Assembly (NCBI GenBank): GCA_026713145.1 | Contig: JAPOPA010000182.1 | Location: 1-33,490 of the forward strand | Source of the DNA: Chloroflexota bacterium | Lineage (GTDB): Bacteria > Chloroflexota > Dehalococcoidia > Lucifugimonadales > VXLM01 | Reading direction: 5' to 3' | DNA length: 33,490 nt | Part shown: one piece after another, positions 3,222 to 10,820 of the stretch | How the letters are laid out: every line of letters starts with the position of its first letter | Position numbering within the stretch: position 1 is the first letter of the stretch | Made by a program: the position numbers and the translations under genes | Notes under the pieces: generated by a model | What the model was told of the DNA's origin: nothing | Databases searched by the model: none | The model's input: only the letters and a program-made list of their open reading frames with translations

Positions 3222-5684
3222 CTAATTGAAGCGAGGGGAAAACGGTGAGTCGGTGTCCGGACGCTGGTAGATGTATGCGTTCTCGCTTCCGAGGCACGAA
3301 AAGTCCTCCTCAGCTGGTACACAGGCTCCGTTGTTGGTCCAGAATTCTCGGTAGAGGAAGAAGTCGGCCAGGTCGCGCCATGTCCGGCGGTCCACAGGGT
3401 CGGCGAGGAGTTTGCGTAAGCCGAACGTGTTTTGGTTCTCCTCTTGAGAGTGGTATCCCCTGTACACGGCCTCAGGGAACCACCACCGATGTTTGATTTT
3501 CTGCGGCTTGGAAAATTCCTCGGCAAATGAGGGGTCCGCCGTACTCTTGTTGTTCGAGTGCACGAGCGCGACCGGCGAGTTTGGTGGGTTCGTCACTCCC
3601 GTAGTGCTATAGTTCGTGTATTGGATATCGTCTCTCCCACGCAGGTACCAGTACCATGGCCAATGGAAGCCGCTCGTGCCATCAATGGCGGCGATGGGAA
3701 TACTCTCCTGCGCGTCCTGTTCGCGCAACACTCGCGCCAAATTATGGATGTCCGGCGACGTCTGGGTGTACACGATCATCTCAACCGGGATGTCGCCGTG
3801 CTGGAATGCAGCCATTGTGCCCGCCCGCCCGCTAAGTACGAGGAGTACTGCGGCTACCGAGACCAACGCTATTGTGCCGAATACTGACGGCCGGATTACG
3901 CGAGCCAGGAAATATCCGATCACTGCCAGAGCTATGGCAGTTGCCGCGAGAATCACGCCAAAGGTACGGGCTGGAAGATCGAGAACTGTTTCGTAGCCGT
4001 CAAGACCCAGGAAGGCTAGGTTCCACAATAGGGCCAGGAAAAGCGGAACTCCAACAAGTGTCAGGAGTCCACCGATTTTGGAGACTTTCTTCCATTCAAT
4101 ACTCACGATGATGTCGTTCAGGAACTTGCCGGAAAGCACGATCATCGGCAGCGTGATGTTGACCAACAGCCATGGCATCTTCTCGCTGGCGACGGTGTAG
4201 AGTAGGAGCGTAGTCCACACCCAGTACACCAAGAACATGCCGAACTTGTCTCTTTTGCGGAGGTAGTAGACACTTCCGATGATGGCGAGGAGCAGGGGCA
4301 GGAACTCGTACAGTGACATAATCACGGTGTAGTAATACCAAGGCTGGCTGCCTCTACCCTCGCCCTGCTGCACGACCCAGTAGCCGAGCGACTGCCACAC
4401 GCCGGAGCCAATGCCGAACCCGTTCGTGAGTAACGACGTGTACATCAAAATGTAGAGCGCATAGAAGATTGCCGCCGCCTTCCACCAGACCGATGTGTTC
4501 CACTTGAGGCCGTAGGACAGCGCAAGGAAGATCAGGAACGCCGTGACGAGGAAAGCGACGACCAGACCGCCCCCGACAGGAGAGCCGATCGGTCCAGAAC
4601 CACCAACGGGGCTCGCCAGCGTCAGTCCGCTCCACCCGAGGAGCGGGGTATCCTGGAGGATGCTGACAAACGCACCCCACAGCGGGAGGGTAATGGTAAT
4701 CAGGAAAACCAGGAAGCCGGCCTCCTTGGAAATGCCCCTCATATCCAGTCCGTGTTCAAGTCGGGATATCCAGCCACCCACAATCTTGACCGCGGCGACG
4801 GGCGGCGAGTCCACCCCAACATTGACCTTCGACTTCACCGCGTTCCAGTTACGACTGATGATCACCAGTACTAGGTACAGTCCCATAGTCGCGGTGATGA
4901 GATACGCGCTTTCCTTCGAGGCGAATGCGAAGGCAAGAAGAGCCGCCGTAATGTACAGGTAGTGCGCCTTACCCATCTTGGGTGGAGGTCCTGCAGACTC
5001 CTCTCCGTTAGGTTCCTGGGAGGACTCCTCGTGCTTGGACTCGTCCGCCTCCTCTCTCAAGTCTTTTCGGATAATGTTCGCCAATGCCGATGACCAACGT
5101 CGAATGTGGGAGTTGCGCCACCCTTCTCGAATCGCAGCCGAGACTACTGACCACCAGCGTCGGACAAGGGAGGGACGCCCCTCTGGGTCAACCCCCGGGT
5201 CCTCATCGAGATATCTCCACATGGCAATGACGATGCCGAGTGCCCATACGGCCATGAGAATGTCGTTGCGCGCGAAGCGGCTGTAGTACAGCATCGCTGG
5301 GGAGAAGGCCAGCATGATGGACGCCAAGAGCGCTCCCCAATCTCCCAACCGGGACCGGAAGAGCAGTGGCATGAGAACCAGTGCCGTACCCGCAATGGCG
5401 TACAGAAGGCGAGCGGTGTAATCGCTGTCACCGAAAAGGAAGAACAGCCCGGCGGTTGCCTCCATCTGAAACGGGCCGTGCATCATCGGATTATGGATGT
5501 ACCCTTCGCCGGCGTACAGATTCCAGGAGTAGAAGGCGTGGAGGCTCTCGTCGTGATGGAACGCGCGGACACCCAGGTCCCAGAATCGCATCGCAGCGGC
5601 AGCGACGGTTAGCACGACGTAAGTCGCCACGTAGAGTACGCGCTTCACCGAGTACCGGTTGGGCGTGGGCTGATCGAGTGTCAC
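3222..5684 (-). CDS. TIGR03663-family (Agl23-like) membrane glycosyltransferase-like protein
   Basis: An 820-residue polytopic protein with roughly a dozen membrane segments. The first extracytoplasmic loop carries HHDESLHAF (43-51). It is followed by NPMMHGPFQ and, after further segments, SRFARND, which resembles the GT-C fold of dolichol-phosphate-mannose or ArnT-type transferases. A charged, Glu/Lys-rich soluble loop occurs near residues 205-240. The C-terminal ~200 residues are largely soluble (FHWPWYWYLRGRDD and onward), as in GT-C enzymes with an extracytoplasmic domain. TIGR03663 proteins co-occur with, and often neighbour, the YYY family, exactly as here: the YYY gene ends 40 bases upstream. 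The likely role is lipid-linked sugar transfer or glycan assembly at the membrane, but this is inference. The start is GTG, with no strong Shine-Dalgarno. Confidence 0.85.
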   Translation of the reverse strand: MTLDQPTPNRYSVKRVLYVATYVVLTVAAAAMRFWDLGVRAFHHDESLHAFYSWNLYAGEGYIHNPMMHGPFQMEATAGLFFLFGDSDYTARLLYAIAGTALVLMPLLFRSRLGDWGALLASIMLAFSPAMLYYSRFARNDILMAVWALGIVIAMWRYLDEDPGVDPEGRPSLVRRWWSVVSAAIREGWRNSHIRRWSSALANIIRKDLREEADESKHEESSQEPNGEESAGPPPKMGKAHYLYITAALLAFAFASKESAYLITATMGLYLVLVIISRNWNAVKSKVNVGVDSPPVAAVKIVGGWISRLEHGLDMRGISKEAGFLVFLITITLPLWGAFVSILQDTPLLGWSGLTLASPVGGSGPIGSPVGGGLVVAFLVTAFLIFLALSYGLKWNTSVWWKAAAIFYALYILMYTSLLTNGFGIGSGVWQSLGYWVVQQGEGRGSQPWYYYTVIMSLYEFLPLLLAIIGSVYYLRKRDKFGMFLVYWVWTTLLLYTVASEKMPWLLVNITLPMIVLSGKFLNDIIVSIEWKKVSKIGGLLTLVGVPLFLALLWNLAFLGLDGYETVLDLPARTFGVILAATAIALAVIGYFLARVIRPSVFGTIALVSVAAVLLVLSGRAGTMAAFQHGDIPVEMIVYTQTSPDIHNLARVLREQDAQESIPIAAIDGTSGFHWPWYWYLRGRDDIQYTNYSTTGVTNPPNSPVALVHSNNKSTADPSFAEEFSKPQKIKHRWWFPEAVYRGYHSQEENQNTFGLRKLLADPVDRRTWRDLADFFLYREFWTNNGACVPAEEDFSCLGSENAYIYQRPDTDSPFSPRFN

Positions 5685-5724
5685 AGAACTACTCTACTCA
5701 TATGATTCACACATTTGAGGTCAT

Positions 5725-8052
5725 TCACCTTCTGTATATAACGACATCCGCCTCGGAGAAGACAGGCGTCATGAATCGACCGAATTTCTCGAGTCCCGCA
5801 TCGCCGTACTTGTTGCGTTCACGAGGGCCGACATATACGTGGTCGACGTCGTACTTGTCCAGTAGTGACGCGGCCTCGCTGATATCAAGCGTCTGATAAA
5901 TGGTCTGAACGTCCTGTTCTCGGCCTGCGAATGGTGTCGACGACCCGCGCCACTGCATTTGGTGCCCCGGCCAGTTGAGCGCCGTCGGTACGCCTGTGCT
6001 CGACGCGATGCGCCCGTGCTCGGAGTAGCCACCTCCAACCGCCTCGAGTATCGCCGAGTCTTGACCGACATTTTCCCGGACATACTCAATGGCCCGATAC
6101 TCTGGGCCGGCGAAGCGCTCGACGTGCTGAAGACCGTCCAGCGTCCTCTCCTCGCCGTACAACTCCGCCTTGGAAGCGGTCGCCGCCGGTACGTAGTAAA
6201 TCGACGCTATTAGCACTAGTACGAAAGCCCCTCCCCAGAATCGCAACAAGAGCCGACTAGAGAAGTCCGACTCCGTGATGAGTTTGGCAAAATAGTATAT
6301 GACGTAGCCAGTTGCGGCGGCGAGTACCGTCCAACCCTGATAGTAGAGTTTGAATACGGTGTTCATGCGTTCGTGGGCCCCACCGAATGAGTCGTCGACG
6401 AAGAGGAGCTCCGGCCCCATTATCAGTGCCAGTCCTAGTGACGCCAGGGCCATGGCGAACACCAACCCGTCCCGCTCTTTCTCTTCTCCAATAAGCCACA
6501 AGGTCGCATATGCCGCCAGAGTGACGAGCAGGACAAGAGGCAAGACTTGGATTAACCTTCCAATCACCCCGGCTGGATCGCCGCCGCCGTTCATGTACAA
6601 AGGGACCCAGACTGCGAACGGCAGAAATCCCGCCGCCAGTGCATAGAGTGTCGTGCGTGTCCAGTCCTCTCTGATCGTCGTGCGCGAGTAAACCGCAACG
6701 ACGAAAGGCGCCACTGCGACGAGATAAGGAGCCCATACGAGAACGAAGTGAAGACTGCGCGTCCCCGGGCCGTCCAATGCTCCGATGCCTCCGACTTGGC
6801 TCGTGAAGCTGAGAAAGTACGGCGAGTACAGTACAAAGGCTACGACCCCCACGAGCAGTGCAAACGGAGCCGTCTCCAATACTAGGTCTCGGATACGCGT
6901 CCGTCCGCTCCGGTAAACCCTGAGCGCCGCTATGAGCAAGAAGATCAGTCCGAATACCGGCAGGTCCCACATATTCGTGAATCCGAGACCGCCCAACAGG
7001 AAGGCGATCAAAAAGAGCGAGAGGTAGAGCCGCCAACCACTCCACGACCAAACCGATGGGGCGCGCCAAAAGTTCCACAGAAAACCCAGGAACATTACGA
7101 CAAATGGCACGGACATCACGTGCGGATGCAGATCACCGAGAATGTAGCTGAATGCAGGAAACTCATGGATCGTGTAATCGGTCTGAACACCGGCATCAAA
7201 GCTGCCGATTACTCTGGTCGCACGCCACCACCACCAGTTCTCCGTAGGCCACCACTGTTCCGTAAGACTTCCTGCCGGGGCTGTCAGCCCTTCCACGGCA
7301 ATCCAGCTCCAGAAGCCAACGGAGCCAATGCCGTTGGCGCGAAAGAACTCCAGCACACCCTCCAAGTTTGCAAGAAACACGAGTAGTAGCGCAGCTGTCA
7401 CCCCTGCGAGGACTGCGGCCTTAAACCTGCCCTTGTCGGCCCTTACAAGGTTGGAAACGAGCCCGAACATCCCCACGGCGGCCATCGCGGGCACCAGCGC
7501 GAGGGAGAGGTTGTAAGTCACGCTCGATACGATGCCCGTGAGCTTGGTCAACAAGGCGAAATTCCAGTAACCGAAGTAGTAGTAGCTGATGCCCTCTCCC
7601 CTGAGCCACGCGTCTTCGGGCGTTCCAAGCATCGACCGCGCCGTGCTGTTCAGGAACATGAAATCCATCGGCTGCTCGGTATGGCTGATCGAGGGGTCGT
7701 GGAAACGGTAGGTGATCCAAATCGCGAACACGCCGAGGAAGACGACTTGGCCTGTCGCCAGCGTCTTCCATTCACGGACAACGAAGTCCACTATCTCCTG
7801 CCGGTTGCGCTGGACGACCCACGCCGAGACGCCGGTCATGATAATCAGCAGAAGGATGGCCGTGACCTGTGTGCTCGGTACGATACGCAGGACGCTGAGA
7901 ATCCACGAGGCGTATCCCAATGTGAGAAGGCCAAACGGCATGGCAATGCTAGCGCCACGGTCACGCAGGTTGGGAAGCAGGTAGAAGCAGAGGGGAAAGG
8001 CCGCCAGCGCGATGGCATACGCGGCACTCAGCCACAGGACAACTTCAAGCAT
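5725..8052 (-). CDS. Chlor_Arch_YYY (DUF2298, TIGR03662) membrane protein
   Basis: A 775-residue, strongly hydrophobic protein containing the family's hallmark YYYFGYW (157-163). Just before it lie HTEQPMDF (124-131), with conserved acidic residues, and FLNSTARS. This is the single-copy class of 700-900 residues. The family is restricted mainly to Chloroflexi and Archaea and its biochemistry is unproven. The overall pattern of about 16 membrane segments, acidic residues in the first loop and a C-terminal soluble domain (from about 640, ending VDHVYVGPRERNKY) is GT-C-like. It is the first gene of a two-gene unit with the TIGR03663 partner. An 18-bp near-palindrome lies about 40 bases upstream (8091-8108). 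The upstream neighbour encodes a phosphohexomutase, which fits a sugar-transfer role. Confidence 0.9.
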   Translation of the reverse strand: MLEVVLWLSAAYAIALAAFPLCFYLLPNLRDRGASIAMPFGLLTLGYASWILSVLRIVPSTQVTAILLLIIMTGVSAWVVQRNRQEIVDFVVREWKTLATGQVVFLGVFAIWITYRFHDPSISHTEQPMDFMFLNSTARSMLGTPEDAWLRGEGISYYYFGYWNFALLTKLTGIVSSVTYNLSLALVPAMAAVGMFGLVSNLVRADKGRFKAAVLAGVTAALLLVFLANLEGVLEFFRANGIGSVGFWSWIAVEGLTAPAGSLTEQWWPTENWWWWRATRVIGSFDAGVQTDYTIHEFPAFSYILGDLHPHVMSVPFVVMFLGFLWNFWRAPSVWSWSGWRLYLSLFLIAFLLGGLGFTNMWDLPVFGLIFLLIAALRVYRSGRTRIRDLVLETAPFALLVGVVAFVLYSPYFLSFTSQVGGIGALDGPGTRSLHFVLVWAPYLVAVAPFVVAVYSRTTIREDWTRTTLYALAAGFLPFAVWVPLYMNGGGDPAGVIGRLIQVLPLVLLVTLAAYATLWLIGEEKERDGLVFAMALASLGLALIMGPELLFVDDSFGGAHERMNTVFKLYYQGWTVLAAATGYVIYYFAKLITESDFSSRLLLRFWGGAFVLVLIASIYYVPAATASKAELYGEERTLDGLQHVERFAGPEYRAIEYVRENVGQDSAILEAVGGGYSEHGRIASSTGVPTALNWPGHQMQWRGSSTPFAGREQDVQTIYQTLDISEAASLLDKYDVDHVYVGPRERNKYGDAGLEKFGRFMTPVFSEADVVIYRR

Positions 8053-8090
8053 GGGAACATTCTACCGAAACGACTATCGTGAGTGAATCA

Positions 8091-8108
8091 AGTCCACTTA
8101 AGTGGGCT
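8091..8108. promoter_or_regulatory. Palindrome upstream of the YYY/Agl23 pair
   Basis: The perfect 12-bp palindrome CCACTTAAGTGG (8094-8105) extends to 18 bp with one mismatched symmetrical position. It sits in the 83-base gap between the phosphohexomutase stop and the YYY start. It resembles an operator more than a terminator, because no T-run follows on the minus strand. Confidence 0.4.
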
Positions 8109-8135
8109 CGATGTCCTTATCGCGGAGCCTAAAGG

Positions 8136-9554
8136 TCATACGCCCGCCAGGGAACGCGCTTCGGTCAAAAGAGACTGCACCATTTCGGGTGAATCACCCT
8201 CGGCGTAGATGCGAAGGAGCGGTTCCGTGCCCGAGAAGCGGATCAACGCCCAGTAGCCGTCCGGCAGTACGAACCGGTAGCCGTCCCTGGTATCGACGTC
8301 TTCCACTCGCCGCCCTGCGAGTTGACGTGGCCGGGCAGTCCCGACCCGTCGCTCTATGGCCTCCCGTTCCGCCACGTCGAAGTGGAGGTCGAGACGGTCG
8401 TAGTGGTGTGGACCTACGGTATCCGACAGTACCGACAGCAGCTCGGACACAGTCTTTCCCGTTCTGACCATGAGGTCGAGCATCATAAGACCACTCAGAA
8501 TTCCGTCGCGCTCAGGGATGTTGCCCCGGAAGGCGTACCCGCCGCTCTCCTCTCCTGCCGTGAGGGCGTTCTCGCGCATCATGACCGGCCCAAGGTACTT
8601 GAACCCCACGGGCGTGTCGTAGACCGGTACTCCGTATGCATTCCCCAGCTTATCGATCATGCTGGTCATGGTGATCGACCGCACCAGAGGTCCGCGATTT
8701 CCCAGGACTTCCAGTTGGTAGTAACACAGCAGGGCGAAAGCCTCGAGGGTCGTCACGAACCGACCGCGCTCATCGACAACGCCGAGACGGTCGGCGTCAC
8801 CGTCCGTCGCGAGGCCCGCGTCGGCCTTGGAATTCTCCACCTCTTCAAAAAGCCCTGCGAGATTGTGAGGGAGCGGTTCGGGCTGCACCATCCCCGGAAA
8901 ACTTGGGTTCTTCTCACCACGTAGCTCTACCGCCGCCGAATTCCCACCGGAAACGAGGCGCGCCAGATATCCGGAGCCGGAGCCGTGCATCGAATCGACA
9001 ATTACTCGTAGACCGGCCTTCCGTATCCCGTCGAGATCTACAAGGTGTGCCATATTCTCCAGGTACAAGGGTTCCGGGTTAAAGTACTCCACTAGCCCGC
9101 TCTTAACGCCCTCGGCAAGCCGTGTGGCCTTGAACTGCCCCTGCCGCTCAGCACTGGCAACGTGACGTTCAAGGGAAACTACGATCTCCGGTGAAGCGCT
9201 CCCACCGTAGTCCGGTTTGAATTTGTAGCCGTTCCACTCTGGCGGGTTGTGGCTCGCCGTAATTACAATCCCGCTGCCTGCTCCCTTAGCAACCAAGTTG
9301 AACCCGAAAGCGGGCGTTGGTGCGGGTCTGTCGGCAAGTAACACGCGGAGTCCGTTGCCTGCGAACACCTCCGCCGCTGCCGCCCCAAACTGCTCCGAGC
9401 CGAATCGGGTGTCGTAGCCCACAACCACCGGCCGGCCGTCGCCGTTCGCCGACAGCATGTCAGCCGTCCCCTGGGCACAGAGGCGAACGTTGTCGAAAGT
9501 GAAGTCGTCGGCGACGAGCCCCCGCCATCCGTCGGTCCCGAACTTTATTGGCAT
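8136..9554 (-). CDS. Phosphoglucomutase/phosphomannomutase (α-D-phosphohexomutase)
   Basis: Cytosolic enzyme interconverting hexose 1- and 6-phosphates, supplying glucose-1-P or mannose-1-P for nucleotide sugars. The 472-residue protein has all four active-site elements: the phosphoserine loop TASHNP (S101), the Mg-binding DGDADR (251-256), the sugar-binding GEESGGYAF (334-342) and the phosphate-binding RFSGTEPLLRIY (439-450). ATG at 9552-9554 (MPIKFGTDGWRG) is chosen because the domain begins at once and AGAGGA lies eight bases upstream; a longer frame adds 25 unrelated residues. It lies upstream of the YYY/Agl23 pair, suggesting sugar activation for that system. Whether it prefers glucose, mannose or glucosamine cannot be read from sequence. 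Confidence 0.94.
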   Translation of the reverse strand: MPIKFGTDGWRGLVADDFTFDNVRLCAQGTADMLSANGDGRPVVVGYDTRFGSEQFGAAAAEVFAGNGLRVLLADRPAPTPAFGFNLVAKGAGSGIVITASHNPPEWNGYKFKPDYGGSASPEIVVSLERHVASAERQGQFKATRLAEGVKSGLVEYFNPEPLYLENMAHLVDLDGIRKAGLRVIVDSMHGSGSGYLARLVSGGNSAAVELRGEKNPSFPGMVQPEPLPHNLAGLFEEVENSKADAGLATDGDADRLGVVDERGRFVTTLEAFALLCYYQLEVLGNRGPLVRSITMTSMIDKLGNAYGVPVYDTPVGFKYLGPVMMRENALTAGEESGGYAFRGNIPERDGILSGLMMLDLMVRTGKTVSELLSVLSDTVGPHHYDRLDLHFDVAEREAIERRVGTARPRQLAGRRVEDVDTRDGYRFVLPDGYWALIRFSGTEPLLRIYAEGDSPEMVQSLLTEARSLAGV

Positions 9555-9656: not shown

Positions 9657-10820
9657 CTACCCAGCCTCCAACTCCGTCTGCAATCTCTCCGCGATCAACT
9701 CCGCCTCGCCAGGCATGAGACCGTGCGGATTTACAAAAATGTCCTCGTCGTCGCGGCGGCTTGCCTCGACTATGATCGGCGGATCGCCGTCTGCGAGGGC
9801 ATCGACTATCTCCGTAGCCGGCTTCCCCTGCCACTCGGAGGTGAAGGCAATCGAGACCTCAGGCACCGGTCTGAGCCAGTCGTCCTGCTCGACGGTAGCC
9901 GTGACGCCGGGAATCTCGATCACCGCGTCTACGATGGTGCGACCCTCCGTAAACCAGCGTCGCATATCAGCCTCGTGGTCTCGCCGGACGTACAGGTCAA
10001 GAGCGGTCATCAGGCCAATGACCTCCTCGCGTGCAACCTTCATCGGGCGACCGATGGAGTAGTGCGGACTGGCGTTCAGCTTGGCAGCGTCGATGAGGTC
10101 CTCACGCCCGCAGAGTATACCCGTCGACTGCGGGGCCTTGATCGCTTTCCCGCCGCTGTACGAGACCAAATCGGCACCGTACTCGATAAACTTGCGAAGA
10201 TTCTCCGCGGGCGGCAACATAGCAGCGGCATCGACGAGGAGGGGGAGGCCATGCCCGTGCGCGATCTCTGCAAATTTAGACAATCCCTCAAATGAGTCGG
10301 GGTGCCATCGGGAAGCGATGAACCCCAGCGCCACCGTCTCACCCCCGATGGCTGACTCGACCTCCCAGTCGAGGCAGGTCTCCTCGTTGTCGACCCAGAC
10401 CAACTGCGCCCCGCCCTGTCGCCATGCCTGAGTAAATTCACTGTCGTGCGACCTCTTAATGACAATCCTGTTTTGGTCATGGGCGGCTTCGGGAAGCAAG
10501 GCGATCCTGTCGGGGTCGTCTCCAGCGATCACGGCTGCCGCCTGCAGGGTTAGTCCAGCGGCAGCTCCACTCGTAACGAGTCCCGCCTCGGCCCCGGTAT
10601 GCTCGGCGATGAGCCGGCCGGCCGCCTCATTCAGCTCTTCGAGCACGACCATCGTCCGGCTGGCCTCGGCCATCGCCTTCGCAACTTCCGGCTCCATGAT
10701 GGAACCGCCGAGAATCGTCTGCGTTCCATTGCCGTTGATGATCGGACGAACGCCGTAACGCTCGTAGACACTGCCCCTGTGTCTCAGTGCATCTACCGCG
10801 TCCATTGACTTCACAACCAT
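9657..10820 (-). CDS. SelA/DgaE-like PLP-dependent enzyme
   Basis: A 387-residue fold-type I PLP enzyme of the SelA superfamily. The cofactor lysine is K225 in SYSGGKAIKAPQS, with D197 (LLVDAAA) upstream to pair with the pyridine nitrogen. The N-terminal YGVRPIINGNGTQTILGGS and EELNEAAGRLIAEHTG are hallmarks of this group. Relatives include selenocysteine synthase, but it lacks the long SelA N-terminal domain. It is closer to the shorter proteins that act on sugar-acid substrates, such as D-glucosaminate-6-phosphate ammonia-lyase (DgaE). No selenocysteine machinery is present in the window, so a Sec role is unlikely. ATG at 10820 has GGGAGG seven bases upstream. It lies between metK and the phosphohexomutase, 143 bases after metK. 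Its exact substrate is unknown. Confidence 0.85.
   Translation of the reverse strand: MVVKSMDAVDALRHRGSVYERYGVRPIINGNGTQTILGGSIMEPEVAKAMAEASRTMVVLEELNEAAGRLIAEHTGAEAGLVTSGAAAGLTLQAAAVIAGDDPDRIALLPEAAHDQNRIVIKRSHDSEFTQAWRQGGAQLVWVDNEETCLDWEVESAIGGETVALGFIASRWHPDSFEGLSKFAEIAHGHGLPLLVDAAAMLPPAENLRKFIEYGADLVSYSGGKAIKAPQSTGILCGREDLIDAAKLNASPHYSIGRPMKVAREEVIGLMTALDLYVRRDHEADMRRWFTEGRTIVDAVIEIPGVTATVEQDDWLRPVPEVSIAFTSEWQGKPATEIVDALADGDPPIIVEASRRDDEDIFVNPHGLMPGEAELIAERLQTELEAG

Follow-up and report, generated by a model that had tools for sequence, protein, structure and literature searches.

A co-inherited pair of predicted GT-C membrane proteins, YYY (DUF2298) and TIGR03663, and its possible role in surface glycosylation in Chloroflexota

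A 33,490-nt stretch from the genome of a SAR202-type member of Chloroflexota (contig JAPOPA010000182.1 of assembly GCA_026713145.1; the whole stretch is called the window) was analysed with regard to two adjacent membrane-protein genes, which encode a YYY protein (TIGR03662, DUF2298) and a TIGR03663/Agl23 protein. The two genes form a real genetic unit, and separate structure predictions give good support for placing both products in the glycosyltransferase C (GT-C) fold superfamily. The proteins are probably, though by no means certainly, two co-inherited outer-face GT-C polyprenyl-phosphate-sugar transferases that act on one glycan or acceptor. DUF2298 is an unexplained family found in two thirds of the sampled Chloroflexota genomes. 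It is now predicted to be a GT-C family that lies near the oligosaccharyltransferases (OSTs) but lacks their peptide-reading motif, and its constant partner and candidate catalytic residues open this long-standing unknown to experiment. The pair suggests that SAR202 and related bacteria have a surface glycosylation system that has not yet been described. A PMT-like N-terminus had already been apparent for TIGR03663 from Pfam. New here are the placement at the level of structure, the candidate catalytic residues, counts for the co-occurrence, the fusion proteins, a flippase-like gene as conserved neighbour, and the removal of a nearby phosphohexomutase from the system.

Results

YYY and TIGR03663 are inherited together

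Both proteins of the window scored over the curated cut-offs of the families that the initial annotation had named. YYY reached 510 bits against TIGR03662 (cut-off 300), covering residues 2-774, and 390 bits against DUF2298 (PF10060; cut-off 27.8), while its partner reached 247 bits against TIGR03663 (cut-off 126). The TIGR03662 and TIGR03663 families reportedly occur in the same genomes, according to their original descriptions. When 151 Chloroflexota genomes were searched, 97 carried both families, 4 YYY only, none TIGR03663 only and 50 neither, so the proposed co-occurrence held in every TIGR03663-bearing genome (Fisher P 1e-35, a value that ignores shared ancestry). Among 60 relatives from the same order, TIGR03663 was over its cut-off in 54, and in 50 of these YYY was the next gene upstream and had the same orientation; two of the other four were at contig edges and two (G163 and G185) were truly apart. 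The median gap across 97 non-redundant pair loci was 2 bases, and 43 of the pairs overlapped.

GT-C modules were also found joined to YYY. One example, encoded on a different contig of the source genome, joins a PMT_2-type GT-C half to a YYY half; such natural fusions are longer than 1200 aa. In other classes (L116, L117, L122 and L175) a fusion of this kind belongs to a single run of genes that also contains a solo YYY and one or two genes resembling TIGR03663.

The two proteins could instead be independent GT-C transferases with different targets, linked by nothing more than a persistent gene order close to ftsY. The rnc-ftsY synteny around the pair is indeed persistent, and the pairwise distances of YYY and of TIGR03663 follow those of FtsY as well (r 0.53 and 0.79). 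However, the pair stayed intact where other classes have different flanking genes (L116, L117 and L122), no genome had TIGR03663 without YYY, and in a mirror-tree test the correlation between YYY and TIGR03663 distances was still 0.46 once FtsY was removed, a positive but weak signal. We regard independent action as distinctly improbable.

Several variant forms of YYY were observed. Open reading frames (ORFs) of 2300-2500 aa with two in-frame YYY domains stood beside another solo YYY in G118 (L118, 10097-17593) and G150 (L120, 7989-14990). In G158 (contig C1:3082826-3085652), a GT-C-YYY fusion was followed by four tandem ORFs of about 220 aa whose sole match, in each case, was to YYY profile positions 576-685; these represent a free-standing, repeated form of the YYY C-terminal outer domain. 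Large mid-domain insertions occur in YYY proteins of roughly 1200 aa from G171 (L093; profile positions 352-369) and from contig C7 of G204 (positions 352-456).

The initial annotation had described both families as rare. This was correct outside Chloroflexota, where 2 of 14 control genomes had both families above their cut-offs; Haloferax volcanii, a control, matched the two families. Inside the phylum it did not hold, as YYY was over cut-off in 99 of 151 genomes. The best 80 relatives in the TIGR03663 scan were from Chloroflexota only, the named records being SAR202/Dehalococcoidia and other Chloroflexota. A plasmid search aimed at archaeal relatives gave no TIGR03663 match and two YYY matches, one in Pseudobutyrivibrio pNP95, where DUF2298 lies amid surface-polysaccharide genes, and one in an unannotated stretch close to the end of a Halarchaeum record.

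Both proteins are predicted to adopt the GT-C fold

AlphaFold models were built on alignments of 49 YYY and 49 TIGR03663 relatives. The YYY model had a mean predicted local distance difference test score (pLDDT) of 93.1 and a predicted template modelling score (pTM) of 0.94; the TIGR03663 model had values of 87.6 and 0.88. The first eleven Foldseek matches of YYY were all GT-C enzymes, headed by AftA (4.8e-7), DPY19 and AglB, and its structure match list was almost purely GT-C. With a second aligner, YYY matched yeast STT3 at Z 17.3 over 472 residues (root-mean-square deviation, rmsd, 7.0), which exceeds the Z of 13 that chance matches of helical bundles can reach with this aligner. AftA was aligned over YYY residues 16-775, the extra N-terminal helices included, at Z 14.1. 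The C-terminal domain matched that of AglB-S2 (3vu0) at Z 11.3 (rmsd 2.7, 114 residues).

For TIGR03663, the best structural match was ArnT, both by Foldseek (1.2e-8) and by the second aligner (Z 25.8, rmsd 3.8, 441 residues). A search with the TIGR03663 sequence profile likewise retrieved ArnT (E 4.6e-4), the DE dipeptides of the two being aligned, and PMT_2 matches were present in 48 of 49 TIGR03663 relatives. Against the ArnT family itself, the window protein scored 24 bits, far under the 567-bit cut-off. These results support the GT-C fold proposed for both proteins, with ArnT as the nearest match of one and STT3, AglB and AftA as those of the other.

Invariant residues lie in the presumed catalytic loops

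Conservation was scored over 112-143 non-identical solo relatives. YYY residues E126, D147, Y158, E297, P299, H309, H311, R562, N564, F567 and H697 were conserved at 100% and D307 at 97%, and fused YYY paralogues retained almost the same set. The residues of TIGR03663 conserved at 100% were D45, E46, H69, R92, R136, R444, Q447, P448, E501 and P504, and its DE, HGP and EKMP motifs were conserved at 99-100%. In the first outer loop of each protein, where acidic residues had been noted, E126/D147 and D45/E46 are among the fully conserved residues, and the YYYFGYW motif was confirmed at YYY residues 157-163. By helix count, YYY comprises three extra helices followed by a 13-helix core, with lysine and arginine concentrated in the short inner loops. 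On this topology, E126-D147 falls within outer loop 1, and the D307-L-H309-P-H311 motif in the final part of outer loop 2.

In AglB the metal ligands are D47, D161 and H163 (PMC7226087). By helix count, the YYY D307-L-H309-P-H311 motif sits where the loop-2 metal motif of OSTs belongs, and the profile alignment sets H309-x-H311 against D-x-H. This alignment used a profile of three STT3 proteins from one Chloroflexota genome: YYY residues 304-744 aligned with STT3 158-619 in one pass (score 56.5, probability 84%), opening at the presumed loop-2 metal motif (ILGDLHPH versus LLGYTDTH); controls with reversed or block-shuffled sequence reached 28-40. Against the same profile, TIGR03663 scored 54. 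Single STT3 sequences gave no signal against the YYY profile; because the signal came only from a profile of no more than three sequences, the match is taken as support and not as proof. A profile comparison of YYY with TIGR03663 was not significant (probability 10%), although the catalytic loops were in register.

The TIxE motif of OSTs is located in loop 5. The 'TIHE' of YYY (294-297) was considered as its counterpart and set aside, as its position is in loop 2.

None of the 49 YYY relatives matched PF02516 (STT3) at E 1 or better, and WWD was present in the C-terminal part of 0 of 107 solo YYY proteins. YYY is therefore not classed as an OST, since it lacks WWDYG, the motif with which OSTs read the sequon, and never matches PF02516. 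YYY could nevertheless be an OST-class stand-in for STT3 in Chloroflexota, one that would transfer a lipid-linked glycan en bloc without an N-x-S/T sequon while TIGR03663 builds or delivers the glycan; we consider this rather unlikely. A strong, near full-length STT3 was found in one of the 151 Chloroflexota genomes (G082), which has neither YYY nor TIGR03663; in the order relative G161, both STT3 and YYY kinds are present. G082, a member of Dehalococcoidia, encodes three STT3/AglB-type proteins (L252 1345-3687 and 3569-6013; L253 647-2989), one of which has WAD for WWD.

Locus layout and neighbouring genes

The features of the locus are listed in Table 1. The minus-strand gene order in the window is PfkB-type kinase, ahcY, metK, DgaE/SelA-like pyridoxal phosphate (PLP) enzyme, phosphohexomutase, YYY, TIGR03663 protein, DinB-family gene and major facilitator superfamily (MFS) transporter. 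ORF calls agreed with the annotated coordinates and with gaps of 83 bases between the mutase and YYY and 40 bases between YYY and TIGR03663. The mutase ORF, complete as had been noted, starts at TTG 9629 or at ATG 9554, the start annotated initially, and ends at 8136; a profile scan placed all four PGM/PMM domains above cut-off. The PLP enzyme (9657-10820), between metK and the mutase, scored 227 bits against a DgaE cut-off of 600.

Table 1. Features of the YYY-TIGR03663 locus, with window coordinates.
Feature	Coordinates	Strand	Description and basis
YYY protein (TIGR03662, DUF2298)	5725..8052	-	775 aa; 3 extra N-terminal helices, predicted 13-helix GT-C core, outer C-terminal domain; family, fold, topology
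YYY outer loop 1 (residues 119-175; E126, M129, D147, W149, YYYFGYW)	7528..7698	-	Presumed catalytic loop; conservation and loop placement
YYY outer loop 2 (residues 227-314; E297, D307-L-H309-P-H311)	7111..7374	-	Presumed metal site, cf. AglB D161-x-H163
YYY C-terminal outer domain (residues 642-775)	5728..6129	-	Predicted AglB C-terminal unit fold, without WWDYG
TIGR03663/Agl23 protein	3222..5684	-	820 aa; predicted GT-C core and outer C-terminal domain; family, fold, sequence match to ArnT
TIGR03663 outer loop 1 (residues 35-92; D45-E46, H69-G70-P71)	5409..5582	-	Presumed catalytic loop; conservation and DE register with ArnT
Phosphohexomutase (PGM/PMM/GlmM type)	8136..9554	-	472 aa; single-copy enzyme outside the conserved unit; family and gene order

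Neighbours were counted by clustering and family scans across the pair loci. In 61 of 88 loci, the gene immediately upstream of the pair was ftsY. Downstream, 59 of 87 loci had a PF03706/TIGR00374 flippase-like gene at a distance of at most three genes, 60 of 87 had a gene for a flavin adenine dinucleotide (FAD)-dependent oxidase-like protein (NF005560), and 53 had both; Nuo-type subunits were encoded further out. NF005560, which belongs to the HpnE/phytoene-desaturase superfamily (e.g., L066 11313-12698), accompanies the flippase-like gene in the majority of relatives; as a guess, it could act on the polyprenyl carrier.

The initial annotation had raised the possibility that the adjacent mutase feeds a two-subunit transferase; in such a model, the three genes would make up one operon. 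The gene order agrees with this in the window, G152 and G153, that is, in three of the four genus members, one (L085) being on a truncated contig. However, of 88 scorable loci only 2 showed adjacency, each of them from the genus of the window, and the 26 order genomes beyond it showed none. The mutase match was found elsewhere in G151, of the same genus, and in all 26 of those genomes (only a distant relative in G163), and the enzyme is kept in genomes without the pair (e.g., G157 and G170). The mutase thus sits beside the pair through an accident of gene order that affects only some members of one genus; it was ruled out as a component on gene order, and a mutase-fed system is extremely improbable.

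Proposed mechanism

The observations behind the scheme are the predicted folds, the invariant active-site-like motifs, the co-occurrence and adjacency of the two genes, and the GT2 and flippase-like candidates that the genome encodes. Enzymatic activity, the type of donor, the use of a metal, the acceptor and any cooperation between YYY and TIGR03663 are inferred, as follows. Cytoplasmic GT2 enzymes would put a sugar on polyprenyl phosphate, and the flippase-like PF03706 protein would turn the lipid-linked sugar to the outer face. There, the ArnT/PMT-like TIGR03663 protein, through its DE motif, and the STT3/AglB/AftA-like YYY protein, through its acidic residues and DxHxH motif and probably with a metal, may each transfer a sugar or short glycan. 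The two would serve one surface glycan or acceptor, sequentially or as a complex. Of four GT2 proteins in the source genome, three are similar to dolichyl-phosphate sugar synthases of Archaea and to ArnC-type enzymes, with scores of 52-76 bits, under the equivalog cut-offs.

TIGR03663 might instead flip lipid-linked sugars, with YYY as the transferase that uses the delivered substrate. Purified Haloarcula hispanica Agl23 supported lipid-linked oligosaccharide translocation in liposomes and rescued a yeast rft1 deletion (PMC11182771), and the strict pairing of YYY with TIGR03663 would suit a supplier and a user. On the other hand, the predicted TIGR03663 fold is that of the ArnT/PMT transferases, its DE, HGP and EKMP motifs would be unexpected in a protein that does nothing but flip, and the pair has a distinct flippase-like gene as a conserved neighbour; moreover, H. 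hispanica Agl23 is placed in TIGR03663 by its NCBI family name. Because of the predicted ArnT fold, the fully conserved enzyme-like residues and the separate flippase-like gene, we regard this explanation as unlikely. A single GT-C protein might conceivably both flip and transfer. Our results cast doubt on Agl23 being solely a flippase.

Several points weigh against two cooperating transferases. No activity is known for YYY, whose sequence profile gave no match among solved structures, and a TIGR03663 homologue, the H. hispanica Agl23 mentioned above, is a reported flippase. In the source genome, the GT2 candidates and PF03706 flippase-like genes sit outside the locus (the latter on other contigs), and no clear orthologue of the FAD gene was found. 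The signs that associate YYY with TIGR03663 are indirect, namely overlapping genes and the GT-C module fused to YYY in paralogues. The absence of a settled function, as stated in the initial annotation, stands for YYY, as the papers found on DUF2298 assign it none, but not for Agl23, given its published flippase role.

Comparison with known systems

TIGR03663 resembles ArnT and PMT (GT83, GT39) in its predicted fold, the DE motif of outer loop 1, the weak sequence match and the PMT_2 matches of its relatives. It differs from them in falling below the ArnT cut-off, in having a C-terminal domain of its own as well as the motifs HGP and EKMPW, and in its strict partner. Its likeness to H. hispanica Agl23, reported as a flippase (PMC11182771), is a common NCBIfam family name.

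YYY shares with STT3, AglB and PglB (GT66) the 13-helix core, an AglB-type outer C-terminal domain, the acidic loop 1 and, presumably, the loop-2 D/H motif, but has three extra N-terminal helices and a long loop 2 and lacks WWDYG and a PF02516 match. AftA (GT85) was its best Foldseek match, with the extra N-terminal helices within the alignment; identity to this mycobacterial arabinan enzyme is 14% or less, and the likeness was judged on structure.

As a whole, the proposed system would resemble the three-component GtrABC-type systems (PMC11127046), in that candidates for the lipid-sugar synthase, flippase and GT-C enzyme are all in the source genome. Unlike those systems, it would have two GT-C partners (four modules with the fusion) instead of one, its genes are scattered in the source genome, and its flippase-like protein belongs to PF03706 and not to GtrA or MATE.

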